In this document: positions 3,260 to 61,610 of the stretch, piece by piece
How the letters are laid out: every line of letters starts with the position of its first letter
Numbering within the stretch: the first letter of the stretch is position 1
NCBI GenBank assembly: GCA_030765065.1
Contig: CM060977.1
Coordinates: forward strand, 130,948,295-131,012,294
Direction: 5' to 3'
Length of the DNA: 64,000 nt
DNA from: Deroplatys truncata
Taxonomy: Eukaryota > Arthropoda > Insecta > Mantodea > Mantidae
The notes under the pieces: generated by a model
What the model was told of the DNA's origin: nothing
The model's database searches: none
The model's input: only the letters and a program-made list of their open reading frames with translations
Made by a program: the position numbers and the translations under genes

Positions 3260-4074
3260 CTTTCTCTACTACTTATAGTAAGTAAGGGAAGTATTGTATT
3301 CCTCTCAAAAATTCGATACCGAGCTTTCACCGTAAATACATATTTTGAGACCGCCTGAATCCAAAAAAGAAAGCATTTTTGGAAACATGTGTGCGTGTGT
3401 GTGTCTTTAAACAGCATAGCTCAGAAACGAAGTCGGATAAACAGTAAACTTGGTATTTAGGTTCAGTATCTTCCAGAGATGCGACACAAAGGTTTTCAAG
3501 AAAATCCCCCAACCCAGATTACACTTTACATGGAACATTTTTCGAACGAATTAATTTTCTCAAAAATGGAATATAACCATTTTGATTAAATATCAGACTT
3601 TAATATACCTTTAAGGCAATTTAAATGTATATCTTGTGTTTTTTGGGAATGTCCCCAAAATCCTGCTCATGAATCACTTTTACATAACTGGTAAACTGTA
3701 AGGGATACACAAATTTTTACTGAACAAAAAATTTAGATCTGGTTAAAAAACACGATTTATATCACTACTTGTTTTTGGTCAGTGAACCACTTCCTAGATA
3801 TTCCTTTTTATTTGTTTGAATTTTCTAATACGTATACCTTTTCTCAAATGGGAATTCGTTATTCGTTTTTTATTTCCTGGACAAACAAAGAGAATGGAAT
3901 GCTCCACATAGCAACCAGCTCTTAAAATATTTGACTATCGCTTAAAGCCTACCAATTCCCCTTGCATCTACAAGAAAATTAGGAATAAGATGACATGAAG
4001 TAGATGGACAGTAAGCGTTTGTATAAATAGTTTTTACAATGGTAGAGAAAGTCATGCGAGTGCAACACTTCAGA
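3260..4074 (+). mobile_element. Family H repeat, copy 1 (near full length)
   Basis: About 815 bp, from ctttctctac at 3260 to gtagagaaag at 4042-4051 plus a 23-bp tail ending caga. The first and last 10-mers are exact inverted repeats, but the right-hand one sits inside the terminus. It contains a near-palindrome just after the left end and a short GT/GTCT run near 3390-3405. T-runs flank both sides. There is no transposase. It is one of more than a dozen related copies here and the natural reference copy with those at 20826 and 60653. Confidence 0.8.
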
Positions 4075-5693
4075 TTTTTTTCTGTAGTTTTACATTTCTG
4101 TGCATGACATTTATTCCTTGCATTTAAGTTTTGCTCTGATTGTTATGTAAATTTGGGTGCATAATCTCAAATGAGTATCTAAGAATTCATATATACATTT
4201 TATTATTGCTTGATTCTTGGCTCTCAAAAAATTAATTTATATTAAAAAACAAGGAAACTTGAACAACATATTAAAAACAAACACGGTTTTGAACGTTAGA
4301 AGATGTCATTAACAACTTCCCTGACTTTGTATTTGACAGGCGGTTTGAAATTTTGAGGGTTTTTTTGTTTATAAATTAAAAATATTTAATTATATTATGA
4401 GAGAAACTATTTGAGCTTTGAAATTTTGCACAGTTATTTCTTTATTTATATATTACATGTGTCAATTTTAAAGTGAATACCTATCAGTCCCAGTGCCCTT
4501 AATCTCCCCTTAAGGACGTTAATAGGTGAAAGCCAGAAAGTAACAAGAATGCCATGTTTGAACCCAGGTAGTCGCGAGAATGTTGTACATAAAACGAGGA
4601 ATGAACCCTTACCCACCTGATACAAAGTTATTTCCGGAATGTCTAATCCCTCAGAGCAAGAGGAGCGGAAATAGCAGAATGTTAAACGCGGAAAATGGAA
4701 TAGTAGCTTTTGTAAAATGTAACAAGTAAAAATAAAAGACAGAAAGAATGAAAAAAAATAGAAACATCTAAGTTGGATGTCAGGAGTATGCAAAATACAA
4801 GAGAATGTAATTCGGCTGTAATATTGGGTAGTAAGAGTGTCATTTACACTCTTGCCAACTGTCGAAAAGTTAATTAAAGAACTGTTCCGCTAAACGGGAA
4901 CAGAAAACGGTCATTGCTAACGGATGGGCGTAGCCATTTTCTGTTCTTAATTAACAAACACACGGCCTGTTGCGTCACAACGATGATTTATGTTGCAACA
5001 TGAATGTTTTCATTTTTTCCCCGTGCCACATTTATCACCACTTTGACTGCTGCTGCCTACAAGAATATCATAATGCAGCCGTCTGTCTGGCGTGCTTTGC
5101 CGTGCAATGTAACTTCCCTTAGGGGGGGGGGAAGAATGTGTGGCATTTTACGTCGGTAGCATCAGAAACTTGACGGCACATCACAACAATGAGCAATAAA
5201 AATGTGAGAAAGTAACAGTAGGTCTCTACAGAAATAGAGATTACTAGATATAACGCTTTTTTTAAATTGTATAAAAAATCATTAGTATAAAGTATGACTT
5301 TAAAAACAAAGTATTTTACGAAATACTGTATATGATATACGGTCCACATCCTAATATTCGGTGGCCGAGGTTGTTCAGACATGCACTCCTTAACAAAAGG
5401 TCTAAGGTAGTACTACAGTAGTATTTAATGTACCCCTAAGTAATAATGTATAACTCTCATTTTTACTACATGCGGCAATAAAAACAGAATTGAGAAGGTA
5501 AGGGTACGTTGACGAATGTAATACACAGGAAAAGTGAGGATTAGCATGGATAACAACGGAGTCAGTGTTCTTAAACGGGCTAACAGGACGTGGAAAAGCA
5601 GTATATGAATTATGTGGCAGGAGAAAAAGTATACAGCACTACATGACTGAGTGAAAAGAAATAACGATATGGAGGGAAAAAGAATGGGGAAAA
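4075..5693. other. No gene seen; small foldback inside
   Basis: Open frames here (for example 4446-4793 minus, 5119-5382 minus, 5425-5712 minus) have low-complexity compositions and no family motif. A small foldback lies at 4869-4955: gttaattaaagaac on the left and gttcttaattaac on the right, with an inner aacagaaaacgg / ccattttctgtt pairing. Confidence 0.5.
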
Positions 5694-6391
5694 TCTGATG
5701 TTTCACACACATGACTTTCTCTGCTCTTGTACAAACTGTTTTTACAAACGCTTATTCTCCATATGCTTCATGTTAATCGAGATAAACATTTGCAGACTCT
5801 ATCTTATTGCTAATTTTCTTGGAGATCTAAGGGGAATATATATATCTCGAAAATGGTTCACTCAACAAAAAAGTTTATATGACATAAATAGTGTATTTTA
5901 ACGCAGTCTACATTTTATGTGTAGTAAACGTTTGTCTATCTCTTATGGTTTACCAGTTATGCAAAAGTCGTTCACAATGAAGAATACTTTTGGAGACATT
6001 CCCAGAAAATTTAAGATATATATTTTATTCGTCATGAAAGTATCTTAAATATATGATATTTTAATCAAAATTGTTAAAGCCATTTTTGAGAAAATCACAA
6101 TTTTCGAAAAAATGTTCCATGTAAAGGGTAATCTGTGATGGGGAATTTTCTTCAAAACCTTCGTGTCACATCTCTGGAAGATGCTAAACCTACATACCAA
6201 GTTTGGTGTTTAACCGACTGCTCGTTTCTGAGTTATGCTGCTCACAGACAGACACACACGGACATGTTTCCAAAAATGCCTTTTTTTGGATTCAGGGGGC
6301 CTCAAAACATATATTTCCGGTGAAATCTCGGTATTGAATTTTTGAGTGGAATACAATACTTCCCCTACTTACTATACGTAGTAGAGAAAGT
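5694..6391 (-). mobile_element. Family H repeat, copy 2 (internal deletion)
   Basis: Reverse-oriented copy from tctgatg (5694) to gtagagaaagt (6391). About 120 bp is missing at 5840, where the copy jumps from the 'aaggggaat' block to 'tctcgaaaatggttcac'. A 62-codon open frame at 6135-6323 is the recurrent frame seen in other copies. It joins directly to a second truncated copy at 6392. Confidence 0.8.
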
Positions 6392-6848
6392 AAAAAACAA
6401 TAACGAATTCCCATTTGTGAAAAAGTATAAATATTGGAAAATTTAAACAAATAACAAGGAATATCTCGGAAATGGTTCATTCGACAACAACAAAAAATGT
6501 ATATGACATAGGTAAATTGTGTGTTTTAACGAGATCTTCTCTATCTCTTACGGTTTAACATTTATACTAAAGTCATTCAGAAGAAGAGGACTTTTGGGGA
6601 TTACTCAGAAAATTCATGATATACATGTCATTTGCGAAGAAAATGTCTTAAACATGTGATATTTTAATCAAAATCGTTAGAGCCATTTTTTAAAAATTCA
6701 AAATTTGCGAATAGTGTTCCATTTAAAGGGCACTTTGAGGTGGCGGGATTTTCCTGAAAATTTTATGTTGCATCTTTGAAAGATACTGAACATAAATATC
6801 AAGTTTGGTATTTATCCGACTTTTCGTTTTTGAGTTATGTTGTTCACA

Positions 6849-6884
<36 letters not shown>

Positions 6885-6940
6885 CGGGCCTTTTTCAAAA
6901 AATGTTTTTTTTAAATTCAGAGAGAATATAAAACTATAGA
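6392..6940 (-). mobile_element. Family H repeat, copy 3 (5'-truncated, fused head-to-tail to copy 2)
   Basis: Starts directly after the terminal gtagagaaagt of copy 2 with the family's internal block 'aataacgaattcccattt' and runs through the central CA tract (6848-6882) to about 6940. The terminal third of a normal copy is absent. The same breakpoint recurs elsewhere in the window. Confidence 0.75.
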
Positions 6941-15478: not shown

Positions 15479-16283
15479 TTCCGTGGCGCTACGTCCTGAC
15501 AACCGCCCACGTACGCGCGACAGAGGATCATCCAAACGATACGGTGAGGCTATGTAACCATCATCGCATCCCCCAGTCGAAATGTTGGCCTATGTGGATG
15601 GATCGCTGCCTATCGCAGCTCCTCACTTTCCTCACGTGCTGAGTAGGCACCTGTCCTACACTCGAGACGTAAAATCCGCACCCCCATGGTGAGTTCGAAC
15701 ACCGGGTGCATTCCATGGGGTAAACCATATCTACCCGCTGTAGTCCACACAGTCAGGTAGCAGGGCGATCAGTAATATAGGTACTTTAAATGTTTACTTT
15801 TACCATTTAATGTGAAGCTGATGGACAAGGCACTGATATCCAATAGTTTTTAAAGTTAATGTGGGACTAAAGTTTCCATCGATTAAATAAAGAATCAGAA
15901 GAGGGAGGTATAGTAAGTAGACTTGTATTTTAATAAAATAATTCGATATCGAAATGTCACTGGAGGAATTATAGAGGATGGAAGGGGTAAATAGATGTCT
16001 ACTTATAAACTACTTAGCTATCTCATTGAAAGGAACAAAGGTACCAAATAAGAAGTGATTTGCAAGGTAATGACAACGCTATATTAAAGAGGCCACGTGT
16101 TAAGTGCCCGATAGGAGCCTACCTCTGAGGTAGGTCACGAAGTACGTATCTACGGAAAGCTGAGAAAATAAAAATAATGCAATTTGTTCTGTATAAAGAA
16201 TTCTTTTTACGGTTATGTATCTGAAAATCTACTCTTATATCCATTAAATTGTCATGAACAAATAAGAACGTCTTTCATTGTTG
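15479..16283. other. Unannotated, moderately GC-rich segment
   Basis: 15480-15770 is GC-richer than its surroundings and has a box-B-like gagttcgaacaccg near 15692, so it may be a degraded tRNA-like repeat. No box A was found and no gene is supported. Confidence 0.35.
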
Positions 16284-16832
16284 TTTCTGTACCACCTACA
16301 TAGTAGGTCGAGAAGGTATTGCATTCCATCCAAAAACTCTATACCGAGATTTCATCGGAAATTATTGTTTCGAGAACCCCTAAATCCAAAAAAGCATTTT
16401 TAGAAAAAGGTCCTCGTGTGTGTGTGTGTGTGTGCGTGTGCGCGCGCGCGTGTCTGTGAGCAGCATAACATAAAAACGAAAAGTAGGACAAATACCAAAC
16501 TTGGTATTTAGGTTCAGCACCTTTCAGAGATGCGACACAAAGATTTTCAATATAATCCTCTCACCTCAACCTACTCTTTACGGAATATTTTTCCAAAATT
16601 TTCATTTTCTCAAAAATGGAGATATTTACATTGTAAATAAAAAACTTAAATCTTGAATTTTCTGGGAATAGCCTGTGAACTCCACTTCATTGAGAAGGAA
16701 GTTTTTATTACCCTGTATAACAGGTAAACGTTAAGCGATGGACGAAAACTATTACACTAAAAATGTAGATTTCTTTAAAATGTACAATTTATTTCTAATA
16801 ACTTTTTTATGGCATCAACCATTTTCGAGATA

Positions 16833-18063: not shown

Positions 18064-18518
18064 TACGTTATGAATGGTTGGATTTGTTCAATACTTTAAT
18101 TATTTTCAAGTACTTTCGATATTCAGTTGTTTGTCGCAATTGCATGTAGAGCATGCAATTATTTTAAGACCAGTACATAGCGTCCAGTTCTTAAACATTT
18201 GACTACTGATATTCCCTTTGTATCTGTAACGAAATGTAATACAGCTGTTTCCCGAAGGGTTTATCTTGATTAAAATGAAAATAAACTTTTGAAAGAATAA
18301 TTTGTATACCGACTAATAAGCGACAGAGCTAGAGAATGTCGTGAATGTTATCACATCAGATTTTACACTTATGATTTTACCAAACGGAACAATGTACTTT
18401 CATATCTTTTCGAAAATTTTATTTTTTTAAGTTCGGTAAGGAGGTGTTAAAAGTGTAGGTAAGAATTGATATAATTGTCTATAAGGTTTCAGAAACATTA
18501 ATATAGATAACATATAAT

Positions 18519-20137: not shown

Positions 20138-20825
20138 ATATTATTGTTTCTTTTTTATATTTTATTCTTGTTTTATATGTATTTTTAACTGCGCATTCAA
20201 AGCCAAAAACTAAATAGTGTTGTCGATGTTCGATAGGGCATTACTATATAGAACTTCTCGGATATGTTTTATCAGCCAGGATATTTATTAAGTATTTCTA
20301 AACTTTTGGGTTGTATTTCTTTTAAGCAGTCTTGAAACTGTTAAGCAAGGGCAGATATGTTTATGTAAATGCCTAGTCTCACATATTGTAATTTTGAATT
20401 TAAGTACATTTCGTAAGTCTAATCTTGGGGCAATCGTGTTTCAGAATCTGTTATTTGCTTTTAAAATTTACCCATCGACCTCTGCGTTATTTCTAGCAAT
20501 AAAGTTTTAGAGGAGGCACACAGAGAAAGGGATGAAAGGGTAGTGCGGAATAGTGCAACAGCATGTAATATAAAATGCCGTAGACATATTTCGTATAACA
20601 TTGCTCATTAATTTATTCACCCATTAGCCTTGCTATATCCCAATCGAGGAGAGGCGAATGTTCTTGAGAAATAAATCAAATGATTGAGAATAATCCCAAT
20701 AATTTGAAAATTTGCTATTCTTGCTTTTCTTGGAAGTGTGATATGCCAACGGTACCTATATTTTTCCATATTCTTGGTAGTTTTGGCGATTTATTTCGAG
20801 ATTTACTGAGAAAACAGTCTTTTTA
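20138..20825. other. Unannotated
   Basis: AT-rich sequence with no recognisable gene or repeat. Confidence 0.5.
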
Positions 20826-21655
20826 CTTTCTCTACTACGTATAGTAAGTAGGGGAAGTATTGCATTCCACCCAAAAATTCTGTACCGAGATTTCACCAGA
20901 AATACGTGCTTTGAGGCCTCCTATATCCAAAAAAAGTATTTTTGGAAACAAGTCCGTGTGTGTGTCTGTGTGTCTGTCTGTGAACAACATAACTCAGAAA
21001 CGAACAGTAGGATAAACGCCAAACTGGGTATTTAGGTTCAGTGTCTTCCAGAGATGCGACACGAAGGTTTTCAAGAATATCTGCCCACCCCAGATTACCC
21101 TTTGCTTGGAATATTTTTCGAACATTTTAATTTTATCAAAAATGGCTCCTACGATTTTGCTTAAAATATCATATGTTTAAGATATTTTCATGACAAATAA
21201 AATGTATATCTTTAATTTTCTGCGAATGTCTCCAAAAGTATTCTTCATTCTGAACGACTTTTGCATAACTGGTAAACCATAAGAGATAGACAAAATGTTA
21301 CTACACAAAAAATGTAGATCGCGTTAAAATACACAATTTATGTTACATACATTTTTTTGTTGAGTGAACCATTTTCGAGATATTGCTTGTTATTCCCTTG
21401 AATTTTCCAATACATATACTTTTTCTCAAATGCGAATTCGTTATTCACTTTTTTGTCCTAGTAATGCAAAGAGAAGGGAATACTGCACATAGCATCCAGT
21501 TCTTAAAATATTTGACTATCGCTTAAAGCCTACCAATTCCCCTTGCACCTACAAGAAAATTAGCAATAAGATTGACATCTCGATATCTCGATTAACATGA
21601 AGCATATGTAGTTTGTACAAGAGTAGAGAAAGTCATGTGAGTGTAACACATCAGA
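20826..21655 (+). mobile_element. Family H repeat, full-length copy
   Basis: 830 bp from ctttctctac (20826) to tcaga (21655), with gtagagaaag at 21623-21632. The left-end hairpin ctactacgtatagtaagtag is intact. The central tract is 'gtgtgtgtctgtgtgtctgtctgtg'-like (20956-20985). Left flank is ttttta and right flank is acttttt. One of the cleanest copies for building a consensus. Confidence 0.85.
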
Positions 21656-22952
21656 TACTTTTTTCATGTATTAATGAGAAAAGTTCGTCCGGACGCAATT
21701 AATTTAACTGTCTTTTTCTTCTCGTATCCTCATGTAAACCATTTAGCTTAACGATGCATAGATGTTAACTACACTTTCCAATTCATTATTGAGTCTAATT
21801 TATCTGCTAGCAAGCAATTTCTTCACATTATATGTCTCTTCGTTTTTTCTTGGCCCACTTTTCCCTAAACAGCTTTGCTGGTTATTTATTCTGTTTAAAT
21901 ACTTTCAATCGCTTTTCGTCACTTCATCGCAATATACACTTTGCCTCATATTTTATGTCAACTAACAAAAACAGTCTCAGAGGTATCGGTAATATTGAAT
22001 TTTTTTAAAAACAATTGAGACCATGCGCCTCAGCTATTCCTACCGAGAATCGAACCTATGTCCACAGGCTGGAAGGCAGAGCAGTTACCACACGCCAGTA
22101 GGTAGAGTAGCTAGTAAATTTCCCATTCTCGCTTTTACCATGCTAATGTTACGTTTACAATGTTACAATGTTGGTAGATGTTACTGCAAATGTAAAGCTT
22201 AGAAGTCCTTTTCGCTGAATAGCCCGAATGAAACTGCTATTGCATTTGTGGATGTGTGGAAGGAAAGAGCTATGAGTTTCAAACCCCTGACCGCAGCCCA
22301 TTCAAGTACCCCGGCTGGTGGTCCCATTTTGCATCGCATACGCTGACACTGCCTTAGATCGATCGATGTTTAAGTTGGCTACACTGTAAACATGGCACCG
22401 CTTGCCGCTACGGTATAATTATACACAGCGCAAAGTGTTATTTGTCTAGCGAGGCTGGGAAACATTCCCCATTAAATTGTATTGTTCTCAACCAACATTA
22501 CCGACACAGGGAAATAACAAGAGCGAACGGCTGGCAATGTGCGCATTGCGTCAACTTTTACAGCGATCCAATGGTGCATCTACACATGGCAATCTTTAGT
22601 GACCGCATGTAGTGCAGTCTGTGGGGCAATGCAGACCTATAAAAGCAGTAAAAGCCATAACACGAAGCAGTATGGTTTGTATAGGTAGCAAAGATTTCAC
22701 ATTAAACACTAGCCTTACGTTTTGACCTTTCATATATTAGAGCAACTGTTACGAAGAATTTATGAAGCAGGCATAGGCAATTAACGGGTGTATTGCAAGT
22801 TAAATTAAATTGATTCAACACTTCAGTGACGATTAGAGCACGTAACTGTAGTCATAAATGTGCTGATTTTTAACAACCACGTTACACATAAGTGGATAAA
22901 AGGCTACTGCACTGGTTTTAAGGGGCAGTTATTTTGCGTACAATTAAAAAAG
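21656..22952. other. Unannotated; tRNA-like fragment near 22030-22110
   Basis: The minus strand at about 22105-22035 has a box-B-like ggttcgattct preceded by 'ggtaactgctctgcc', suggesting a decayed tRNA-like SINE head. The rest, including an open frame at 21762-21965, is unrecognised. Confidence 0.35.
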
Positions 22953-23775
22953 GCTGGTGTGTTACATTCGCATGACATTCTCTACCCTCTTTCGTTTATT
23001 AGTGAGTATACAAATTATTCTTACGAAAGTTAAATTACTCTTTTCGTTATACAAACAGCGATAGTCAAATGTTCAGGAGCTGGAGGCTATATGTTGTCCT
23101 TAAAATTCCATATTGTTTCCATGACATCGGTAGAAACAATTTAGGAAGAGTGAGAAAGTATTAAACAAATCGAACCATTAATAACTTATACCTCGGAAAT
23201 TTATGGTGCCAAAAAAGGTTATTTGAAATAAATTGTGTGTTTTAAAGAAGTAAGTTTTTGTGTAGGCAGTACGTTTATGTCTATTGCTTAACGTTTACCA
23301 GTTAAGCAACATTATACAGAATTCCTTCCTAATAAAAAGGACTTCACAGGTTATTCCCATAAAATTCAAAATATATATTTTATTTGTCATGTATATATCT
23401 TTAATATATAGTATTTTAGTCAAAATCGTTAACATTGTTTTAGAAAATAAAAAATTTCGAAAAATGTTCCCTGGAAAGCATAGTTGAGGTTGGGAGTTTC
23501 TTTAAAATCCTCGTGTCGTATATTTGGAAGATATCTACTGAACTTAAATACCTACCATGTTTGGTATATATCTGATTTTAATTTTTGAGTTAATATTGTT
23601 CACAGACAGACAAGTCAATGTTGTTTACAGTCACTACATATAGACCTTTTTTTTTAGAGATTTTTGTTTTTGGATTCAAGGCCTTAAAATGTGTATTTCC
23701 GATGAAATATTGGTATAGAATTTTTGGCTTGAATGCAATACTTTCTCTAACTACTAAGTATGTGATAGGGGAAGT
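22953..23775 (-). mobile_element. Family H repeat, old subfamily
   Basis: Reverse copy with the old-subfamily blocks 'ttaacgtttaccagttaag' and 'ttcacaggttattccca', ending near 23775 with gggaagt. The central microsatellite has decayed to a short acagacagac run. It joins a second partial copy head-to-tail at 23776. Confidence 0.7.
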
Positions 23776-24110
23776 AAAAACGAATAGCGATTACCACTTC
23801 AAAAAAAAGGGTATTTAAGTATTTTAAAATTGAAACCAATAAGAAACAATATTTCGCAAATGATAACTGCCACGAACAATTTTATTTGATATGAACTGTA
23901 TTCTTTAGCGAGATTTATATATTTTGTAGTACGATTTTTCCTTTTCATTATGGTTCATCAATTATACAAAGTTCAGTCAGAATACAGAAGGCTTCACAGG
24001 CTATTCCCAGAAAATTCAAGATAAGTATTTTATTTTTAATGCTAATGTTTTAAGTGCATGGTATTTTAATTAAAATCCTTAGAACCATTTCTAAAAAATG
24101 CAAAATAATG
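23776..24110 (-). mobile_element. Family H repeat, partial copy fused head-to-tail
   Basis: Begins with the 'cgaatagcgattacca' version of the internal block and continues through 'tatttcgcaaatgataact' and 'cttcacaggctattcccaga' to about 24110. The junction is at the same family position as the 6391/6392 junction. Confidence 0.65.
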
Positions 24111-24352
24111 AAAATGTCAGGTTGATGTCTAACCAGCTCATCATTATTGAGCATTTTGTTCTCTCTCTCTCCCTCTCTCCCTCCCTCTTTCTATCTCTCA
24201 CCACACATAAAGATGCACAGTGGACCTTTTTATAAAAGCATTTTTATTCAAGAGGAAGAGTTAGTGGAACTTTTCCTAACAAAATATTTTATGCTTCGGT
24301 CCCATTTATGAAGAATTGTTGGATATGCTGTAGTTTACATGACACATTTTAG
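24111..24352. repeat. CT-rich microsatellite and short spacer
   Basis: A (CT)n/(CCCT) run lies at 24161-24199, followed by unassigned sequence up to the next family H copy. Confidence 0.7.
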
Positions 24353-25154
24353 CTTTCTCTACTACTTATAGTAAGTAGGGGAAGTATTGTATTTCACCAA
24401 AAATTCGATACCGAGATTTCACCGGAAATACATGTTTTGAGACCCCCTGAATCCAAAAAAAAAACATTTTTGGAAACATGTCCGTGTGTTAGTCTGTGTG
24501 TCTGTGAACAGCATAACTCAGAAACAAATAGTCGGATAAATACCAAACTTGGTATTTAGGTTTAGTATCTTCCAGAGATGCGATGCGAAGGTTTTCAAGA
24601 AAATCCCCCCATCCCAGGTTACCCTTTACATGGACACATTTTTCGAAAATTTTAATTTTCTCAAAGGTGGCTCTAACGATTTTGATTAAAATATCATATG
24701 TTTAAGGTATTTTCATGACAAATGAAATTTATATCTCCAATTATCTGGGAATGTCTCCAAAAGTATTCTTCATTCTGAACGACTTTTGCATAACTGGTAA
24801 ACCATAAGAGAGAGACAAAATTTTACTGCACAAAAAATGTAGATCGCGTTAAAATACACAATTTATGTCATATAGTTTTGTTTGGTTGAGTGAACCATTT
24901 TCGAGATATTGCTTGTTATTCCCTTAAATTTTCCAATACTTATACTTTTTCTCAAATGAGAATTCGTTATTCATTTTTTTATGTCCTGGTCATACAAAGA
25001 GAATGGAATGCACCACAAAGCATCCAGATCTTAAAATATTTGACTATCGCTTAAAGCGATTCCCCTTGCATCTACAAGAAAATTAGCAATAAGATTAGCA
25101 TCTCGATTAACATGAAGCATATGGAGAATAAGCGTTCGTAAAAATAGTCTTTAA
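24353..25154 (+). mobile_element. Family H repeat, right end truncated
   Basis: Starts ctttctctac at 24353 and follows the young-subfamily sequence to 'gaataagcgttcgtaaaaat' near 25148. It then leaves the family, losing the gtagagaaag motif and the terminal tail. Confidence 0.8.
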
Positions 25155-36954: not shown

Positions 36955-37994
36955 TTTTTTGTATTAGTATTTAATTTGAGAGAAATATTGTAACTATATT
37001 AGTAAGAAAGTTCGCTGTTGTGTATGGGGAAGATACCAGGTCCGAAGCCAAACGAAATACATTAAATTTTATTGCCTAGGGGAAAATGTGCGAGGACCAC
37101 AAAAAACAAAAGCAACATGGAACGCGCTTATTAACTGTAGCAAATCCATGTGATATTCGAAATAGCTAATTGAAGAGCTAGCAGATTTAGACAGCCAGTG
37201 AGAAACATGTAAGTAAAAGGTTTGGAATATTAAACTAAGTTTATGAAGTCACAATATAATAGACAGCTCAAGCTCAGATATGGGAAGATGGAGATCTCTG
37301 CGAAAGTGCTCGCATGAAAAGTACTAACAATCTCCTGTTATTATGCGGGAAAGGTAACCTAACTATTACAGACCGTAAGAGATTCACACTGAGCTAAACT
37401 TTATGTGGGGAGATGTTCTAAAGTGTAGATAACGGACTTAGTCTATTTCGCGGCAACCCCAACAGTTTACTCCAATATTCCTGTAAATTTTGAGCAGTAT
37501 ATATTTAAAATTATCATCTAAATTTACTTGCCGATGTGTTTCACGCTCCCACACCCTATAAGAGATACTTGCTCGACCTAACATACTAGCTAACTGGAAC
37601 ATATAATAAGAGTCATAATTTACAAAAAGACAGTTTATGTATTATCGGTACATAAACCCTCTTTTACAATTGGTATAAACAATGGCGCTAAACTGTGATT
37701 TATGGCTATTTAGGCAGGGATCGGCGGAATACCAGGAAGTATTATTCCCAATTTTATCTCTCTTTTTGCACTAAAAGAATGTTTACATACATTTATTTAC
37801 GGATTTTAGCAGATAGTTCCCTAATCTAATATTACTAACTTTATTTTACCTAATCTTACATTAAACATTTAAAACCAAATCTAATCTTTAACTAAAATTC
37901 CCATTTTTTCTCCATTTACCTATTACTGGGGAACCAGTAGCTAATACTTAACTGGAAAACCAGCGGTACCTTTGTCCTAACCCTAAACTCTATA
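36955..37994. other. Unannotated
   Basis: Nothing recognised. Confidence 0.5.
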
Positions 37995-40260: not shown

Positions 40261-41075
40261 AATACCCTTTAGCATCCATTCTCCTTTTTCTTCATTCCAC
40301 GCTACACATTTTTTGCATTTATTTACCTGTTTAAGAATATCCAAAACATTAGCATCTTCACAATTTCTTTTTGCTTCTTTCCCCCTTTAAACGAACTCCA
40401 AATGTTGTGTGACATTAAAAGTAATAACTATAGCTTTGACAAGTTTCATACTTAATCTCTCAACACTATTAATAGGTCATCTATCTTCTTCCTCTATTTC
40501 TATAATCCAATCCTCCTAGCAGAGTGGTAGTTTTACTTAATCTGGCTCTTACTATAACAGTATTGCTCCATTATATTTTCAATTTCTTTATTATTATCTG
40601 TTTTTAGCAAATATAAGGGCCCTTCTCTTTTTAATTACGAAATCAATCAGCCATATTCCCAAGATAACTAATAAGGCCAATGTGGATGTTGCACTAACTA
40701 CTCCAGTACACGTGTTAAAATATGGCGATATGCGTTGTTTCATAACTTGTACGTTATTTTCTTTATAATAAGTCAATACTTAAAATACGTAAACAAAATT
40801 AATTATATGAATGACTATGTAAACAGAAGGAAGAAATCCACGGTGATGAAAATAAATGTTATGATAAGCCAATTATTAAAAAGGACTGGAGAAAAGTATA
40901 AAATAGAATACGCATCGAACTGTTGATCGAAAAACCTTAGCACTAATGTCATTTGTACTGGAAGTTCCTTTTTTGTGAATTGCGGATGTGTATAGTATGC
41001 ATCACACATTGTATTCTGTTTCTATGTAGGTATGTAGTAATAAGCCAGTAAGTACAGTGTTGGAGATAGAAAATA
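40261..41075. other. Unannotated
   Basis: Nothing recognised. Confidence 0.5.
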
Positions 41076-41926
41076 TCTGATGTGTTACACTCACATGACT
41101 TTCCCTACTCTTGTACAAACTATTTTTACAAACGCTTATTCTCCATCTACTTCATGTTAATCGAGATAAACATTTGCAGACTCTATCTTATTGCTAATTT
41201 TCTTTAGGTGTAAGGGAATAGATATTTGCAAGGGCAATATAGAAATACAGTAGCCTTTAAGCATAGACATATCTCTTAATAGCTGGTTGCTAGGTGCAGC
41301 ACCATTCTCTTTGCCACAGATTAATACCCTTTGCATATCCAAGACAAAAAAAATTAATAACAAATTCCCATTTGAGAAAATAAGTATTGAAAAATGTAAG
41401 GGAATAACAAGCAATAACAATGGTACACTCAACAACAAAAAAATGTATATGACACAAATTGTGTATTTTAACGCGATCTACATTTTTGTGTAGTAAAGTT
41501 TGTCTATCTCTTATGATTTACCAGTTATGCAAACGTCGTTCACAATGAAGAATACTTTTGGAGACATTCCCAGAAAATTCAAGATATACATTTTATTTGC
41601 CATAAAAATGTCTTAAACATATGATACTTTAATCAAAATCATTAGAGCCGTTTTTTGAGAAAATAAAAATTTTCGAAAAATGTTCAATGTAAAGGGTTTT
41701 CTGGGGTGGGGGATTTTCTTGAAAACCTTCGTGCCGCATCTCTGGAAGATACTGAACCTAAATACCAAGTTTGGTGTTTATCCGACTGTTCGTTTCTGAG
41801 TTATGCTGTTCACAGACAGACACACAGACACACACACGGATTTTTTTGGATTCAGGAGGCCTCAAAACATGTATTTCCAGTGAAATCTCGATATCGAATT
41901 TTTGAGTGGAATGCAATACTTCCCCC
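41076..41926 (-). mobile_element. Family H repeat, left end truncated in family orientation
   Basis: Reverse copy from tctgatgtg (41076) to 'caatacttccccc' (41926), losing the terminal hairpin and gtagagaaag. The recurrent open frame begins at 41706 and runs past the element edge to 42065. Confidence 0.8.
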
Positions 41927-42159
41927 TTGTATAAAGAATTCCGAAGAAGAGAAAAACAACATTAAACTACAGGTCAAGAGGATAATGGTGGTAGACCAAA
42001 TAATACAGAGTGCTTCAGGAGCTCTGCAACTAACTTTGTTGAATGATCAACTAGGATATTTTTAGCGTCAAACAACCGATTTTGGCTCATACGTTGTTTA
42101 GGAGCCACACAATTTAGCATACTAGATCCAGAAATTGCGTAAACTCATTTATTGCTCTA

Positions 42160-42663: not shown

Positions 42664-43143
42664 ACTGATGGTCATGATGGCCATTTTAGGGTCAATTTAA
42701 TTTTTTTAAAATGGGAACCTAAGGTTTATATGTTATAAAACGGTTTATTTTGTGAAGAGGCCCAAGGAAACAAAATAAAAAGTGTTGCTTCCCAATTATA
42801 AATGTAACTTGAGCCTCAATGACTATCCATGGATGGTCCAACGCTCTTCGTACACAGCCATTCAGAATTTTCGTTCTTATTTACGTTGGTGCAGGAACAA
42901 TTGCAAAGTGCTTTATACAAACGTTGTTTAATTTTCTATGAGGAGTGAGAAAACAACATAAAAATGTAGGTTCACATATAAAAAAATTAAAATGGTCATC
43001 ACAACGTCCTCCAAATAAAACACAACTAATGGCTTTTACTTCCCTCCCCCCACAATATCAAGCAACTTTTACCCAAGACATTTCTTTCTACAACGCTTAG
43101 TTTTGGAGATATTGTACAATCTCAACTTAAATGGTCCATCCTG
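42664..43143. mobile_element. R2 MITE, copy 3 (left arm truncated, empty site)
   Basis: Begins inside the left arm (tggccattttagggtcaatt at 42670), has the full internal region, and ends with the right arm acttaaatggtccatcctg (43143) followed by TA. At 42774-42790 it preserves the uninterrupted site where copy 1 carries family H. Confidence 0.8.
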
Positions 43144-46935: not shown

Positions 46936-47258
46936 ATAACCTATGGGTCATTTATATCAGTAAATGTCAGAGAGAACACTGTTCAAAGTAAAAATGGAGA
47001 AAAACACCTAACATATATTTACAAAGCAATATTTGCATTTCTTGGACATACGGAAACTGCAATATTTAGAAGTGGTACCAATGTTTAAACCAAAGTTTCC
47101 CTATTATATGAGCTTAAAATATACCTCTCTAGTCCAAGGAATATAGGAGTTTTACTTTTTCAGTAAAGTGGTGCTGTATTCAAAGGACAAAATTACAGGT
47201 GCAGTAACTTATTTTAAAACACATTTAAGTTGTAAGTATTGTGCCCACAATTAAAAAT

Positions 47259-48080
47259 ATGATATATTACGCTCACATGACTTTCTCAACTCTTGCATAA
47301 AATATTTTTACAAACGCTTATTCTCCATATGCTTCATATAATCGAGATATAGAGATATTAATGTTATTGCTAATTTTCTTGTAGATGCAAGGGCTTTAAG
47401 CGATTGTCAAATATTTTAAGAGCTGTTGCTATGTCGAGTATTCCATTCTCTTTGCATTACCAGGACAAAGAAAAAATAATAACGAATTCCCATTTGAGAA
47501 AAAGTATAAGTATTGGAAAATTTAAGGGAATAACAAGCAATATCTCGAAAATGGATCACTCAACAACAAAAAAAATGCATATGACATAAATTGTGTATTT
47601 CAATGCGATCTACATTTTTTGTGTAGTAAAATTTTGTCTATCTCTTATGGTTTACCAGTTATGCAAAAGTCGTTCAGAATGAAGAATACTTTTGGAGACA
47701 TTCCCAGAAAATTCGAGATATACGTTTCATTTGTCTTAAACATATGATATTTTAATCAAAATCGTTAGAGCCATTTTTGATAAAATTAAAATTTTCGAAA
47801 AATGTTCCATGTAAAGGGTAATCTAGGCTGGGGGATTTTCTTGAAAACCTTCGTGTCACATCTCTGGAAGATATTGAATCTAAATACCACGTTTGGTGTT
47901 TATCCGACTGTTCGTTTCTGAGTGGTGCTGTTCACAATCACACAGACCCACACACGGACATGTTTCCAAAAATGCTTTTTTTGGATACAGGGTGCCTCAA
48001 AACATATATTTCCGGTAAAATCTAGGTGTCGAATTTTCGGGTGAAATGCAATACTTCCCCTATTTACTCTACGTTTTAGA
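47259..48080 (-). mobile_element. Family H repeat, young subfamily
   Basis: Reverse copy from atgatatattacgctcacat to 'cttcccctatttactctacg'. It directly abuts an old-subfamily copy in opposite orientation. Confidence 0.8.
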
Positions 48081-48700
48081 AAACTGTTCCCGTGTGTCTG
48101 TGGACAGCTTCACTGAAAAATGAAAAGCGGGATAAGTACCAAACTTGGTATTTACGTTCAGTACCTTCCAAAGATGCGACACGAAGATTTTAAAGATCTC
48201 CTCCCTCCCAGCCTACCTACTTAAGATTTTTCAAAAAATTTGGTTTTTTAAAAAAATGGCTCAAACGATTTTGAATAAGATGTATATGTTGAATTTTCTG
48301 GGAATAGCCTGTGAAGTCCACTTCATTTGGAAGAAGTTTCGTATAACTGGTAAATCTTAAGCGACAGACGAAAATGCACTATACACAAAATGTAGTTCTC
48401 TTTAAAACAAACAATTCATTCCAAATAATCTTTTTGGTGGCATAAGCCGTTTCTGAGATATCCGTCATTAAAGGTTCATTACTTGGTCATTCTCTTGAAG
48501 TCCTTTCAACGTTCAGTTGTTTCTCGCGATTGCATGGAAACAGTATGGAATTTTAAGGCCAGTATATAGCGTCCAGTTGTTAAACATTTGACTATAGCTG
48601 TTTCTCTTCATATCTATAACGAAGTGTGTAATGTAGATATTTCCGCAACGATTTATTAAAATGTAGTAGAAAAGTAAGATTGAGTAAGAATAATTTGTGC
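48081..48700 (+). mobile_element. Family H repeat, old subfamily, abutting inverted neighbour
   Basis: Begins with 'gttcccgtgtgtctgtgg', losing the left 120 bp, and runs through 'gaattttctgggaatagcct', 'gtttctcgcgattgcatgg' to 'aagaataatttgtgcaccc'. It shares these blocks with 16284-18360 and, inverted, with 59872-60645. Confidence 0.7.
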
Positions 48701-48724
48701 ACCCACAGATGTATTTAATTTAAT

Positions 48725-48836
48725 TTTTTTGCAACCAGGAAGTCTCAGAATCTGTATTTCCGTGGAAATCTGAACATCAAGTTTTTGGGGGGTTGCAATA
48801 CTATACACTATTTACCTGGGTAAGTATTAGAGAAAG
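48725..48836 (-). mobile_element. Short inverted family H arm
   Basis: 'tctgtatttccgtggaaatc...gttgcaatac' is the left-end block of family H in reverse orientation, placed after a forward copy. The same arrangement is seen at 61518. Confidence 0.55.
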
Positions 48837-49344
48837 AAAGGATATTAACTGTCTGTTGTTATAGTGACAGCCTAAATGTCAACCTGGACAATGGAAATGT
48901 GGTTAACTATCTGCTGCATCTCAACAGCAGTAATCGATAATGCACTGCTGTCACAGAGGCAAACCATCAGCGTTCAGGTATGTTCAGATCAGACAACCTC
49001 AGTTACTCAATCATAAAGTGCCTCAGTCTTGCATGACAATATTGCTCAACACTGACGGGGGACAATAGAGCGCCTCCTGTGGGATGCTGATGTAATCACT
49101 AACTATACGGAACCTTAACTATGGGATTATCCTTCTTTCTCTTTTCCTACGAATTATCCAGGCAAGCATCCTGCCAGAAGTGACACTTATGTACATGGAA
49201 AACTCATTTAACCCTCATATCAAAAGGTAATTTTTCTATTTTACAAAGTACTTTTGGTTCCGCATATGAAAATTGTATCAACTGTCCCGTAAACTAAAGC
49301 GTTTTCATAGATTTTCTTCAGTAAATGGATTATAGGCTATGACA
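48837..49344. other. Unannotated
   Basis: Nothing recognised. Confidence 0.5.
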
Positions 49345-52815: not shown

Positions 52816-53458
52816 ATACAATGTGTGTATGTGGTGATCCTAAAAGACGAAAATAGATAAATTTCCCCTCCAAGCTCTGTGGTCTCGTATGCGCCACTGA
52901 GGATTACTTTGTTAATTAACGTGGAATTCATGTTTCCGCCTCATATCTGGGATTCATTTGCTGTAGTTAAGATATCCTTTATAAGTTACCCACGTTTCAC
53001 CGTGATTCTAGCTCGAGCCTGGTGAGCGGGAAGCAGAAACTCCGGTGAGTGTGTGGCCCAGATTTTTCTGCCGTGTCTATCGACCCTGGTGAAGAAGCAC
53101 GCCGTTATCTTGCATCGCCCTCTCCACTGTTTGCCTTGCTCGAGTTCGCAACGAAAACTCTTCAGATAATCTCGAAACGGGGCCAGTGGGACGCGCTCTT
53201 TGTTACAACTACACTTCCGATTATTGTCAAACTTGAGAACACTGTTGGTAACCGCGTGCAGATAAAGTTGTACCTTTATTCCTGTCATTGAGAAATCCTT
53301 CTGGATTAGCTGAGAACTTTCACAGCGTTCGCTTCAACTATAAGCTGGTGACTTGGTATTGACGCTGTGGTGTCTGCTTTTAACGATATCACTTCAAAAC
53401 TGCACAGTCAGGTCCTATTTATAATGAAAATTAAGCGTAAGCATAAAGTAAAATTAAA
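52816..53458. other. Unannotated
   Basis: Open frames on both strands at 52986-53291 (100 and 80 codons) overlap each other and have no recognisable motif. No gene is called. Confidence 0.4.
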
Positions 53459-53556
53459 AATCGGGTGCGTTGCATTCACCTGACTTTGTACACCCCCTCT
53501 TCCGCAAACCAATCTTAATAACCCTTACTCTTCTATCTGCTTCATGCTAATCCATA
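53459..53556 (-). mobile_element. Family H terminal fragment
   Basis: 'gggtgcgttgcattcacctg' to 'ctgcttcatgctaatcc' is the reverse-orientation tail end of family H, cut off at a (TA)n run (53555-53570). Confidence 0.55.
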
Positions 53557-53567
53557 TATATATATAT

Positions 53568-54213
53568 ATTCCATCCAAAAATTCGATACCAAGATTTCAC
53601 CGGAAATATATGTTTTGAGCCCACATGAATCCAAAAATGCATTTTTGGAAACATGTCCGTGTGCGTGTCTGTCTGTCTGTCTGTGTCTGTGCACAGCATA
53701 ACTCAGAAACGAACAGTCCGATAAACACCAAACTTGGTATTTAGGTTCAGTATCTTCCAGATATACGACAAGAAGGTTTTCAAGAAAATTCCCCACCCCA
53801 GATTACCCTTTACATGGAACATTTAATTTTCTCAAAAATGGCTCTAACGATTTTGATTAAAATATCATATATTTAAGATACGTTCATGACAAACAAAATG
53901 TATATATTGAATTTTTTGGGAATGTCTCCAAAAGTATTCTTCATTGCGAACAACTTTTGTAATACTGGTAAACCATAGGAGATAGACAACATTTTGCTAC
54001 ACAAAAAATGTAGATCGCGTTAAAATACACAATTTATGTCATATACATTTCTTGTTGTGTGAACCATTTTAGGATATTGCTTATTATTCGTTAAATTTTC
54101 CAATACTTGTGCTTTTTCTCAAATGGGAATTCGTTATTCCTTTTTACTTTCTCTACTACATATAGTAAGTAGGGGTAGTATTGTATTCCACCCATAAATT
54201 CGATACCAAGATG
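53568..54213 (+). mobile_element. Family H repeat, tandem-junction copy
   Basis: Starts inside the left end (attccatccaaaaattcg), runs to 'gggaattcgttattcc' (54139), then switches directly into a second unit start tttttactttctctacta at 54140-54158 and ends near 54213. This is the forward equivalent of the 6391/6392 and 23775/23776 junctions. Confidence 0.75.
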
Positions 54214-55191
54214 ATATACATGATCATCATTAAAGTATATTTTACGTTTTGATAGTGTGTTTTGTGTTTTGTTAGAATATAAAGTATAGGTTTTGTTGCC
54301 TAGTAACTACGAACTAAAGTATCATTAATTATTATAGTAGTAGGTAAAAGATGCAGAAGGTTAGAAAAAATACGAAATGCACATATAAGAGCAGCACTCA
54401 ATAAATAGTAAAAGTAAAAAAATATCTAAATAAATGGATGCAACATTTGCAAAGAATAGGAGATTCAAGATTAAGATTGCACTTCATTACCAACTAAAAA
54501 GGAGAAATGTCGGCCGACCCAGAAAGAGGTGGAGGGAACCACTATGAGATGTGATGGGCATTGTGCCCATGTCGTGAATTGAAGAAGAAGACTGAGTAAT
54601 TTAATCATCCAGGAAGTGTATTATTCACTAAGATAATCACCGCTATCTCCATGTCGATTTTAAATCTAAGCAATCACAAACGCAAGATCGTGGAAATCAC
54701 TTCCTTTGTGTGTAAATATTTCACGTCTTCTTAGCTAATATCTTTGAACAATGCAATAGCTTTCCGGAGTATTTGCAATTATCCTTTATTTCAGTATGCA
54801 TGCGCAAACGTTAGTGGCGACACAGTTTCGACAATAGACAGTTTTAGATACTTCAAATTCTTGACGAAACGAAACTGTTCCAGTGCTTGATTTTGAGGTT
54901 ATGTTGTGCTTACGGTTTGTAGAATGAAGTGAGAAAATGAAGAAATAATTTAATTCCTGGATTTATATGCAGTGCGGAAGTTCTTATGGGGTTTTTATTA
55001 TATAAACTTTAAAAATAAAGCGAAATTGTGCCGCTGCGCTTGGGTTAATTTTGAAACCACGTAGTATGGATGAAATAACAATAGAAGAATTTAAAAAGCG
55101 AATTTATTCCACAAAATACAGCTACACAAATGAAATACGGAAGATGGAAAAGATTAAAAAATATGGAAGTGGCACTGACCTTAAGGCAGTA
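54214..55191. other. Unannotated
   Basis: Purine-rich in places (54330-54600). No family motif recognised. Confidence 0.45.
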
Positions 55192-57908: not shown

Positions 57909-59871
57909 TTTCTTAAAAACCTAGTGTTGTCATGTAAACTAGGCTTTAGAAGATGAATTAGCCACGTCTAATAATTCCTTTTTGATCTAAAGCTTTACTT
58001 TGCACTAAGTTTCGTACATCCTTGTAAACCTTTTATCTCACTCAAGCGTTAATACACAGAAATCGCAAGTCTGGTTTCACCAAAATTACCGAAATACTGC
58101 CCTACCTGCTTTCGGTAGGCGTTGTAATTACATGGGTACCACACGAATTAGATACCTTAATAAAGAGCTGTAACTGGACCCAAACGCTGTATCTGGGCCA
58201 CCAAATTGGTGCGAGTTTTGAGCCGAAAGCGACGACCCAGCTAGCCATTTCTCTCACACTTTTTGTGAAGCCCTTTGTCCATAATCTCCGCCGGAGGTGG
58301 GGGCGGGCCTTGGAACAAACGAGGAGCGACGCTGCCAGGTCTCTGTATGAGCTCGCTTGTTTCCCTCAGAGCAGAGAATTTCCCCTAATAACACTAAATG
58401 TCCCTTTGCGCTTAATGAGCGTGTCGCGGCGCTACTCCCGAGCATGCGCAGAACTTGCCGGGATATCATTACGCATTCTGCCCAGTCCGTGATGTCTGCA
58501 AAGCGGTCCTAACATGCGGGTCATCATCGCACTACAAGCGAGCCTGTTACGGTTCCTTACCACAATAACACTAGCGGGTCTCCGTGGCAATTTGTCCAAG
58601 AGTACAATGTGCTTTTGTAAAGGTTCATAAACTTGGGTTACAATTCTTCAAAATTTAGTGAGAGGACAAGGTAGCCTGAACAAATGGAAATTACATCTTA
58701 AGTGTGTTAAATTACCACTGCTCTTAAAGTTCTCAATGTTTTTCCTTAAACGTTTTATGAGTTATTCTATAAATCATGACAATTATTTTAAGTGTTTATT
58801 TGAATAGATAGCTTATGTAGTTGAGTTCCTGAAAATTATTTCATTCAGCAGAAAAATAATAACATTTACTCTTAAAACATGTGAATTCATGTACCTTTTT
58901 CTCTGATACTACTTCTAATACAGAATCACACTTTTTCATGCTTGTTCTTAGTATAATAAGCTATCTTCTGAACCTTCATTATTTAGTTATGCTTATCAGT
59001 TCACTAGAAATGGAACAAAACTATTTGCAAAGTCAAAAAAGTAAAAAGGTGAAAAATTTGCAATGTTGTTGCTTTCTTAATATCACTAATGTAGATTATA
59101 AAATTATGATCGTGGTTCAGAAAGTTTAACTATATGTTGTTTACATGTACTGCAAGTTTCAGCTCTCTACCTCTCATACTTTCTGAGAAAAAGGTACGTA
59201 AGTATCCAAAAATGTTGTTTTGAGGAAACTGAATTTAAAGTTTGAATATTAAAATTCTGACACCTTCAATACATTCCAGGGCCATAATCATTTGCACCTT
59301 CATTCCTCGATTGCTTCAGCTTTTCTGATTGCCTTCTCTTGGTCCTGGCCTCTTTTGTTAACTACTGAACTGCTCGCTGGGCATGACATACCTAGTCGTT
59401 CGTCGTTATAAGATACAAAAATGTTCTAAAAAGAGATGTTGCGCGACAGCTTTAAAGGAATGCAGACTAACAGTTAAATGGTATTTAAATGTATTAAAAA
59501 TCTCAACTCCCAAAAGTATATATTTCCTGAAACTGGAAATAATAGAGAGTTTATTAGTGCTTAAAACAAAAATTGTGATTTTTGACCATTTCAGAGTACC
59601 TTGTCCCCTTAAGGGAGGTGTAGGGTATATGTGTTAAATATATTACTGTATATTTAATAACCTTACTACTAGTAGAGTAAAACTATATACTGAAGACATC
59701 TAAACTTCCACCGTGGCATAAATTTAACAGTAATTTCCATAAAATCATTAGCTTTCTATTAAATAAAGACTAAATGAGGAAAATTGCCAAAAAATTGGCA
59801 TGTATTTTCATTTTGGTATACAAACTTTATTGTTGTATCAAAAGACCCGTATTTAAACACATTTTTTAAAA
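57909..59871. other. Unannotated; GC-rich patch at 58190-58560
   Basis: The GC-rich patch has overlapping open frames on both strands and a 'ccaccaaattggtg' palindrome at 58199-58212. It could be an LTR edge but no supporting partner was found. The rest is AT-rich and unrecognised. Confidence 0.4.
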
Positions 59872-60574
59872 ATTTGATGCGATACATTCACATGACTTTC
59901 TCTACCTCTATCATTTAATAATGGGTATACAGATTATTCTTAGAAGAGCTTATTTTTATATCTACTATACTAAATGCAAATAAACCTTTTTAGAGAAATA
60001 TCTGCATTACACACTTCGTTAGGATACAAAGAGAACAGCGATAGTCAAATGTTTAAGAACTAGCTTTAAAATTCATGTTGTTTCCATGCAATCGCAGGAA
60101 ACATCTGAAAATCGATGGGACTTAAAAAATGACAAGTATTGAACATATCGATCCATTAATAGTGATATCTCGGAAATGGCTGATGCTACAAAAAACTTAT
60201 TTCAAACAAATAGTGTGTTTTAAAGAGATCTACAGTTTTTGTGCAGTACGTTTTCGTCTATCGCTTAACGTTTACAAACTATACAAGACTAAACAACATT
60301 CCTCCCGAATACAGAGGATTTACGGGCTATATGCAGAAAATTCAAAATATAAATTTCATTTGCTATGTAAACATTTTTAATCCATGATATTTAATAAAAA
60401 TGGATATAGCCATTGTTTATAAAATAGAAAATTCCGAAAAGTGTTCATGTAAGGGTGGTTTGGGATGCACGACCTTTTTTTTTTTTAAATATTCCTATCG
60501 CAGCTTTGGAATTTACTGAATATTAATACCACGTTTGGAATTTTTGCAACTTTTTATTTCTTAATTATGCTGCT

Positions 60575-60624
<50 letters not shown>

Positions 60625-60645
60625 GGATATATTTCTAAAATGCTC
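59872..60645 (-). mobile_element. Family H repeat, old subfamily, head-to-head with next copy
   Basis: Reverse copy from tgatgcgatacattcacatg to the long (CA)n tract (60576-60621) and 'tttctaaaatgctcttttt', breaking off before its left end. It then meets a forward copy. Confidence 0.75.
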
Positions 60646-60652
60646 TTTTTTA

Positions 60653-61517
60653 CTTTCTCTACTACGTATAGTAGGTAGGGGAAGTATTGTATTCCACCCA
60701 AAAATTCGTACCGAGATTTCACCGAAAATATATGTTTTGAGGCCCCCTGAATCCACAAAAAAAAACATTTTTGGAAACATGTCCGTGTGTGTCTCTGTGT
60801 GTCTGCCTGTCTGTGTGTCTGTCTGTGTACAGCATAGTTCAGAAACGAACATTCGGATAAACACCAAACTTCGTATTTAGGTTCAAAATCTTCCAGAGAT
60901 GCGACACGAAGGCTTTCAAGAAAATCCTCCTACCCCAGACTACCCTTTACATGGAAGATTTTTCGAAAATTTTAATTTTATCAAAAATGGCTCTGACGAT
61001 TTTGATTAAAATATCATATGTTTAAGATATTGTCATGAGAAATGAAATGTATATCTCGAATTTTCTGGGAATGTCTCCAAAAGTATTCTTCATTGTGAAC
61101 GACTTTTGCATAACTGGTAAACCATAAGAGATAGACAACATTTTACTACAAGAAAAATGTAGATCACGTTAAAATACATAATTTATGTCATATACATTTC
61201 TTTTGTTGAGTGAACCGTTTTCGAGATATTGCTTGTTATTCCCTTAAATTTTCCGATACTTATACTTTTTCTCAAATTCCTTATTCATTTTTTTATGTCT
61301 TGGACATGCAAAGAGAATGGAATACTCCACATAGCAACCAGCTCTTAAAATATTTGACTATAGCTTAAAGCCTACCAATTCTCCTTGCATCTACAAGAAA
61401 ATTAGCAATAACATTAACATCTTGATATTTCGATTAACATGAAGCATATGGAGAATAAGCGTTTGTAAAAATAGTTTGTAGAAGAGTAGAGAAAGTCATG
61501 TGAGTGTAACACATCAG
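60653..61517 (+). mobile_element. Family H repeat, full-length young copy
   Basis: 865 bp from ctttctctac (60653) to catcaga (61517), with the hairpin ctactacgtatagtaggtag and gtagagaaag near 61486. The GT/GTCT core is at 60782-60829. The recurrent open frame is at 60574-60867 (minus). Confidence 0.85.
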
Positions 61518-61610
61518 ATTTTTTATTCAAGGTGACTCAAACATGTATTTCTATTTAAATCTCGTTATCAAACTTTTGGATGGAATGCAAAAAAAATTAC
61601 CTACATATTG
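61518..61610 (-). mobile_element. Short inverted family H arm
   Basis: 'attcaaggtgactcaaacat' to 'ggatggaatgcaa' is a reverse left-end block following the forward copy across a T-run, as at 48725-48836. Confidence 0.55.

Follow-up and report, generated by a model that had tools for sequence, protein, structure and literature searches.

A high-copy repeat of the mantis Deroplatys truncata is very probably a non-autonomous Helentron sharing both ends with a 10.4-kb Rep/helicase element

Introduction

In the account of Thomas, Vadnagara and Pritham (2014; PMC4067079), Helentrons are marked off from Helitrons by serine rather than leucine before the proline of the QxRG(S/L)PHxH motif. Their passenger elements (HINEs), described there for a mite, Culex and Drosophila, are deletion derivatives of an element encoding Rep, helicase and endonuclease and have the same termini; the target is given as unmodified, and the T runs at the borders may belong to the element. 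The DINE-1/INE-1 elements are described as carrying a near-terminal 5′ inverted repeat partly overlapped by a second one, a GTCY-type tract and a 3′ inverted repeat followed by a stem-loop, and as having a T-rich target and a very high copy number (PMC2374699, PMC4067079). Here we analyse a repeat of this layout, designated family H, in a 64,000-bp stretch of the genome of the mantis Deroplatys truncata (assembly GCA_030765065.1, contig CM060977.1; G000:C3:130948295-131012294, hereafter the window) and in the whole assembly (4.29 Gb, 818 contigs). H is very probably an approximately 890-bp non-autonomous, HINE/DINE-1-like Helentron that depends for its movement on a 10.4-kb Helentron, also present in this genome, with a two-tyrosine HUH Rep, a PIF1 helicase and a probable endonuclease.

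Two further systems bear on the composite elements reported below. In FoHeli (Helitron2) of Fusarium oxysporum, several 5′ termini are joined to one 3′ terminus, and the authors suggest self-insertion, with transposition starting at the leftmost 5′ terminus and stopping at the first 3′ terminus (PMC5148889). In the bat elements Helraiser and HelibatN, the 3′ hairpin is reported to act as a leaky terminator whose bypass captures flanking sequence (PMC4778049).

Abundance and terminal structure of family H

Copies of family H elsewhere in the genome were located by BLASTN with two window copies as query. Thirty loci, including the window's own copy at 5694, were fetched, and a profile was built on 27 of them; the left-end motif was not found in the other three. 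With this profile, 24 matches (E ≤ 1e-3) covered 12,244 of the 64,000 bp of the window (19.1%), and the reversed window gave no match. An earlier reading of the window from its letters alone (the sequence-only reading) had described a recurrent family with about 17 copies. All nine of its example positions lie inside an H match and the recurrence is borne out, while manual joining of fragments gives approximately 16 elements. In a genome sample of 30 random 500-bp stretches, chosen by script from the 16 largest contigs, H was present in seven stretches with a mean coverage of 12.7% (bootstrap 95% interval, 4–24%), and the same stretches reversed gave no match. If this coverage holds, H occupies roughly 0.5 Gb of the genome, a coarse extrapolation. 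A search of a phage collection gave no match, and a search of viral contigs no relative.

The H consensus is 890 bp long. Its 5′ end, TTTTT-ACTTTCTCTACTACGTATAGTAAGTAGGGG, contains a near-terminal inverted repeat with a nested hairpin, and its 3′ end, GTAGAGAAAGTCATGTGAGTGTAACACATCAGA, carries the inverted repeat a second time and, behind it, a small palindrome. Because the coding strand of the partner described below sets the orientation, the hairpin end is 5′ and the tctgatg end is 3′, the inverse of the assignment made in the sequence-only reading. In agreement with the DINE-1 layout, a TACTA..TAGTA inverted repeat overlaps ACTTTCTCTAC, and a GTCY-like tract (GTCCGTGTGTGTGTCTGTCTG) is located approximately 130 bp from the 5′ end. 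The layout that had been noticed in the window recurs in copies on other chromosomes, which have both ends, the inverted ACTTTCTCTAC/GTAGAGAAAGT pair, the GT/GTCT tract, the TACTA..TAGTA hairpin and T- or A-run flanks. Taken as a single strand, the 5′ end forms a good fold (z score −2.4; 7 of 200 shuffles as good) and a better one still together with its T block (z score −3.9; none of 200), the strong hairpin being that of the 5′ end. A canonical Helitron, with 5′ TC, 3′ CTRR and insertion between A and T, was considered and rejected: H ends in T5-ACTTTC and CATCAGA and its target is a T-run, in line with the earlier remark that no CTRR end is visible.

An autonomous partner in the same genome

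A search of the genome with the Helitron Rep profile PF14214 gave at least 152 matches, a lower bound with 150 of 291 candidates scored, and 18 of the matches listed lie in open frames of at least 2,000 aa. One copy, C9:66062627-66073038 (10,412 bp), was analysed in full. It contains one frame of 2,324 codons from stop to stop on the + strand, with Helitron_like_N (PF14214, 5e-26) and PIF1 (PF05970, 8e-29), both above the cut-off, as well as DUF6570 and Herpes_teg_N. In the PDB, the helicase part has matches to Helraiser (4.6e-25) and to PIF1 chains. There is no second frame of at least 150 aa in this copy, and hence no separate frame of that size for replication protein A (RPA). Pfam indicated neither a DDE transposase nor a reverse transcriptase domain in the frame, either of which the sequence-only reading had named as speaking against a Helentron. 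The translation also contains GDFN, IDII and SDH stretches, which we take to be endonuclease motifs; together with a PF14529 match considered below, they suggest that the protein probably carries a C-terminal endonuclease.

Ten loci of this lineage (class B, L051–L060) share 96.1–99.3% pairwise identity. The HUH motif is present in all ten, in the form RGSPHEH with the Helentron-type serine before the proline, and the two-tyrosine (Y-KY) and Walker A motifs are present in eight; in six loci the frame is free of stops over approximately 3.5 kb. The frames of the long partner copies range from 2,108 to 2,543 aa, a spread perhaps due to an N-terminal repeat tract. Such a tract of short repeats (e.g. 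KKSERKRNKEYMEQAREDEE) was seen in the N-terminal part of the Helentron protein at approximately 3830–4760 of locus L061.

A second Rep lineage (class A, L031–L050) was also observed, in which most loci have stops within the match. All ten readable loci of the 20 show the Helitron-type RGLPHAH, with leucine before the proline. Class A was rejected as the partner of H on account of this motif, the frequent stops and the presence of H sequence in only two of the 20 loci of approximately 3.5 kb (L040 and L047); its ends were not sought.

Termini shared by H and the partner

The outermost 5′ end of the partner is ACTTTCTCTACTACGTATAGTAAGTAGGGG behind T's in all nine copies with enough upstream sequence. 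The flanks of these copies differ, and some of them are H sequence at other positions. At the 3′ side, GTAGAGAAAGTTATGTGAATGTAACACATCAGA followed by T's was found in 14 of 14 copies (11/11 and 3/3), with the exception that L102 has one change in this sequence and ATTCTTT behind it. The subterminal repeat GTAGAGAAAGT is identical in H and the partner, identity over at least 11 bp being the rule for HINEs. H 1-597 aligns to Helentron 1-613 with 93.5% identity, H 1-740 to Helentron 627-1381 with 93.4% identity, and H 858-890 to the last 33 bp of the partner with 93.9% identity. The search for a Rep/helicase element with both ends of H, proposed by the sequence-only reading, thus found one in the same assembly, and the Helentron-type interpretation gains support from its RGSPH motif and probable endonuclease. 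Given this partner, whose ends are those of H, the other option of that reading, a new type converging on the Helentron design, is not needed.

Target site and the T block

The 5′ flank is a sharp block of five T's: after removal of the ends lying in three recognised H contexts (46 of 69 5′ ends kept), the T fraction is 0.76–1.00 at −5 to −1, with 0.89 at −5 and 0.33 at −6. The 3′ flank, profiled on 43 of 66 3′ ends with a similar H-context filter, is a T-run of variable length that begins at +1 and fades past approximately +6 to +9. The T- or A-run flanks described earlier are therefore real and are not symmetrical. Filled and empty sites were compared in seven cases, the empty sites being a paralogue in the window (42734-42926) and H copies that contain other H copies. 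In six of them, approximately five (4–7) more T's are present at the 5′ border of the filled site, without visible duplication of other bases; mutations make the seventh (L008) unreadable. Among 40 full copies, none of the 12 informative ones has equal 5-nt flanks as expected for a 5-bp target duplication, and single-base differences may be later mutations. A multi-base duplication, which had been named as evidence against a Helentron, was accordingly not seen in these copies.

Twenty-five of 66 5′ ends abut H sequence, 17 in the same orientation and eight in the opposite one. The same-orientation junctions lie near H consensus positions 530 and 610–620 and just behind the 3′ end, and the opposite-orientation junctions near 100–110, 300, 480 and 830; junctions were matched by eye with positions rounded to 10 bp, and several of the 610–620 cases come from one event. 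For all 25 ends, the site is either a T-run of the insertion strand or the position immediately after the 3′ end of another H. These data suggest that the T block is probably the element's own and that insertion takes place directly 5′ of a T-run without duplication. At four loci (L089:835-1759, L094, L100 and L102), head-to-tail neighbours were also noted, in which an H or Helentron 3′ end is followed by a few T's or some twenty bases and then by the next 5′ end.

Composite elements and alternative 3′ ends

All nine partner copies with a readable 5′ region carry at least two tandem 5′ ends (heads), 626–679 bp apart, and two copies carry three. In front of the inner head lies CGTTATTCATTTT, a sequence of H and thus an H-type 5′ part cut at its T-run. 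The window itself contains three two-headed elements, at 5684-6923, 22941-24105 and 53566-54217, and in the one at 5684-6923 the head junction falls at the T-run of the outer unit. Two kinds of 3′ stop were observed among 14 partner copies. Eight end at the inner terminator and have their own flanks beyond it, and six end at the outer one; in each of these six, the sequence runs on from the inner terminator through what is left of the interrupted H to a second terminator, behind which the flank changes.

In a tree of 11 partner copies, strongly supported branches force at least three switches between the 3′ types, and the 3′-type label clusters no more than in shuffles (139 of 500 as low). Because it is difficult to regenerate the outer-stop form from the inner-stop one, we infer that inner stops probably arose repeatedly. 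The composites are consistent with self-insertion at the internal T-run and support the chimeric, read-through model already in print. In the open-licence literature on self-inserted, nested or chimeric Helitrons, the Fusarium paper (PMC5148889) alone was found, and other tests may exist.

Features of the window

The features assigned to family H in the window are listed in Table 1. The H copy at 30519-31352 is inserted in a repeat of some hundred bp seen in two copies, one bearing H (30300-30513 with 31358-31680) and one at 42600-43100; the repeat is perhaps palindromic by eye. A 53-bp tandem repeat array of approximately 20 copies in two rows lies at 1983-3027, shortly upstream of the first H copy. 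On the − strand, an open frame at 63499-63981 matches the helix-turn-helix domain of Mos1-type mariner transposases (E 4.7e-9), and 14502-15020 gave a weak match to that of Tc3-type transposases (E 0.0015, below the curated cut-off). Outside the window, contig C16 measures 707 Mb and 15 other large contigs measure 134–339 Mb, sizes that may resemble an X0 karyotype with a giant X of the bush-cricket kind.

Table 1 Family H features and the empty site in the window.
Feature	Position	Strand	Evidence
H copy, both ends (element 3259-4074)	3249..4085	+	nhmmer E 2.1e-210
Two-headed H: complete copy 6392->5694 behind a truncated second 5′ unit 6923->6394	5684..6923	-	nhmmer 5684-5842, 5842-6397, 6394-6923
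Old H copy, 5′ half	16283..16832	+	nhmmer E 6.8e-100
Probable 3′ half of the 16283 copy, split by ~1.25 kb	18087..18365	+	nhmmer E 4.3e-12; model positions 14-335, continuing from 359 of the 16283 copy
H copy, both ends (20825-21655)	20814..21664	+	nhmmer E 5.2e-264
Old two-headed H element	22941..24105	-	nhmmer 22941-23031, 23057-23785, 23777-24105 and junction
H copy, 5′ end present	24340..25152	+	nhmmer E 1.4e-256
H copy (30519-31352) inside another repeat	30508..31363	-	nhmmer, empty-site alignment
Internally deleted H copy, both ends (36273-36954)	36266..36963	+	two nhmmer matches
H copy	41065..41954	-	nhmmer E 1.4e-280
Empty site: ~77% identical paralogue of the repeat hosting the 30519-31352 copy	42734..42926	-	alignment
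H copy	47246..48082	-	nhmmer E 1.1e-247
Old H copy	48074..48703	+	nhmmer E 1.8e-70
H 5′ end fragment	48701..48845	-	nhmmer E 6.7e-13
H 3′ end fragment	53449..53559	-	nhmmer E 9.3e-10
Two-headed H fragment: 5′ unit to its T-run, second head from 54146	53566..54217	+	two nhmmer matches, junction sequence
Old H copy, first part, broken by the 60641-61527 copy	59865..60650	-	nhmmer E 1e-64
H copy (60652-61518) inserted in opposite orientation into the A-run site of another H	60641..61527	+	nhmmer E 5.2e-273
Second part of the broken copy 59865-60650	61521..61591	-	nhmmer E 1.1e-8; model 804-875 continues from 805

Discussion

Several observations weigh against the reading of H as the passenger of the partner described here. 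The two agree only over approximately 740 bp at the 5′ side and approximately 33 bp at the 3′ end, and H 741-857 (117 bp) has no counterpart in the partner. The last 60 bp are 63% identical, and 91% identity is reached over 35 bp. On the protein side, the endonuclease match (Exo_endo_phos_2, PF14529) has an E value of 4.6e-5 with a score of 23.7 bits, below the curated cut-off of 27.4; a PDB search with the C-terminal endonuclease part gave no match, and a single-sequence model of this part was unusable, with a mean predicted local distance difference test (pLDDT) score of 34. The 3′ palindrome is a 5-bp stem (ATGTG/CACAT) with a stability no greater than that of shuffled sequences (z score −0.2 to −0.8). 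Clustering of the TTATT form of the T block (7 of 65) on the tree is weak, with 25 of 1,000 shuffles as low. Finally, the heads are unread in five of the 14 partner copies whose 3′ end was read (C8_76, C5_31 and L100–L102), and for C5_31 an approximate pattern found no head within 2.5 kb upstream. Where identity of at least 80% over the last 60 bp defines a subfamily and a shared repeat defines a family, H and the partner found are, by sequence, members of one family and of separate subfamilies. The 63% identity and the unmatched 117 bp indicate that the closest donor may be another subfamily; H is thus, as judged by these alignments, an internal-deletion derivative of the partner's Helentron family and not necessarily of its subfamily.

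Two other origins of H were weighed. Were H a miniature inverted-repeat transposable element (MITE), derived from a transposon that moves by cut and paste and has subterminal inverted repeats together with a T-rich 5-bp target duplication, the short inverted repeats at both ends would fit, and a duplicated TTTTT would add the same approximately five T's that distinguish the filled sites. The inverted repeats are asymmetric, though, the left and right 5-mers differ in all the informative copies, and the element that shares both ends encodes a Rep/helicase with no DDE domain found, so that we consider a MITE very improbable. Equally, H might owe its mover to some other element and share its ends with an unrelated Helentron merely through insertion or recombination, and the nested H-like 5′ units of the Helentron copies do demonstrate that the two sequences are intermingled. 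Against this, the 3′ terminus is H-like in all 14 partner copies, eight of which have no remaining H behind it, the outermost 5′ terminus is H-like in nine of nine, and a further coding element ending in this way was not encountered, although the search was not an unbiased one; we rate this explanation marginally below even the MITE.

For the two kinds of 3′ end, truncation, gene conversion or recombination would be an alternative to termination at different sites. Highly similar copies recombine easily, and strong support was obtained for just three of the eight inner branches of the tree. The short forms, however, share one end base, located at the terminator, and run on into T-rich flanks that differ between copies, which indicates that they were inserted as units, and the long forms end at a second terminator. 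An origin of the 3′ ends by such rearrangement is therefore unlikely, with a better chance than either of the two alternative origins of H.

Mobilisation of H by the Helentron could proceed as follows. The Rep would nick at the leftmost 5′ end and the helicase would peel off the strand until the 3′ inverted repeat and palindrome, acting as a leaky terminator, halted the peeling. The product would then be joined 5′ of a T-run; a circular intermediate would show the junction of CATCAGA to TTTTTACTTTCTC. Insertion into a T-run of the + strand of H itself would stack 5′ heads in tandem, and the composite would then move up to one of its two terminators, inner or outer. On this basis we tentatively propose, at somewhat less than an even chance, that T-runs are strand-specific landing pads steering head-to-tail self-insertion, that together with a leaky terminator they form a ratchet adding 5′ heads, that multi-headed Helentrons are the successful form, and that the five T's are a true element end matching the target T-run.

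Compared with the published description of DINE-1/INE-1 of Drosophila (PMC2374699, PMC4067079), H has the same overlap of inverted repeats, the GTCY-type tract, the T-rich target and the high copy number. It differs from that description in its 11-bp rather than 13-bp inverted repeat, its five-T 5′ block, its weak 3′ stem and its strong 5′ hairpin, and the likeness drawn here is one of layout. With the HINE/Helentron pairs, as far as PMC4067079 sets them out, H and its partner have in common the shared termini, the T borders, the unmodified target and the serine before the proline. Unlike the Helentrons in that account, the partner has a longer protein with an N-terminal repeat tract and no separate RPA frame of at least 150 aa (one copy), and the distance between the end of the inverted repeat and the 3′ terminus is 22 bp instead of approximately 38–60 bp as given for the mite. 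Several 5′ heads on one 3′ terminus are also reported for FoHeli, in whose description the duplicated 5′ part is typically shorter than 200 bp (PMC5148889); here the heads are approximately 630–680 bp apart in nine of nine autonomous copies with a readable 5′ region and both products are present. Bypass of the terminator, as proposed here, is also reported for Helraiser, which differs, in its published description, by its TC...CTAG ends and its shorter protein of 1,496 aa (PMC4778049).

H and its partner belong to a known kind of element; the present analysis adds to it the link between passenger and master, a set of empty sites and the pairing of inner-stop with read-through products. A repeat that may account for about a tenth of a 4.3-Gb genome is thereby connected with an enzyme of a named kind, long open frames being present in many copies, and can be classified rather than left as 'unknown'. 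If the proposed ratchet is true, the inner-stop and read-through copies would preserve a natural account of how far the terminator leaks in the germ line (6 of 14 copies here). Both products that the scheme suggested by the Fusarium authors for chimeric Helitrons would yield from one nested parent, the inner stop and the read-through, are seen here, and the direction of transfer, the leakage of the terminator and the role of T-runs as targets become measurable from a single assembly.

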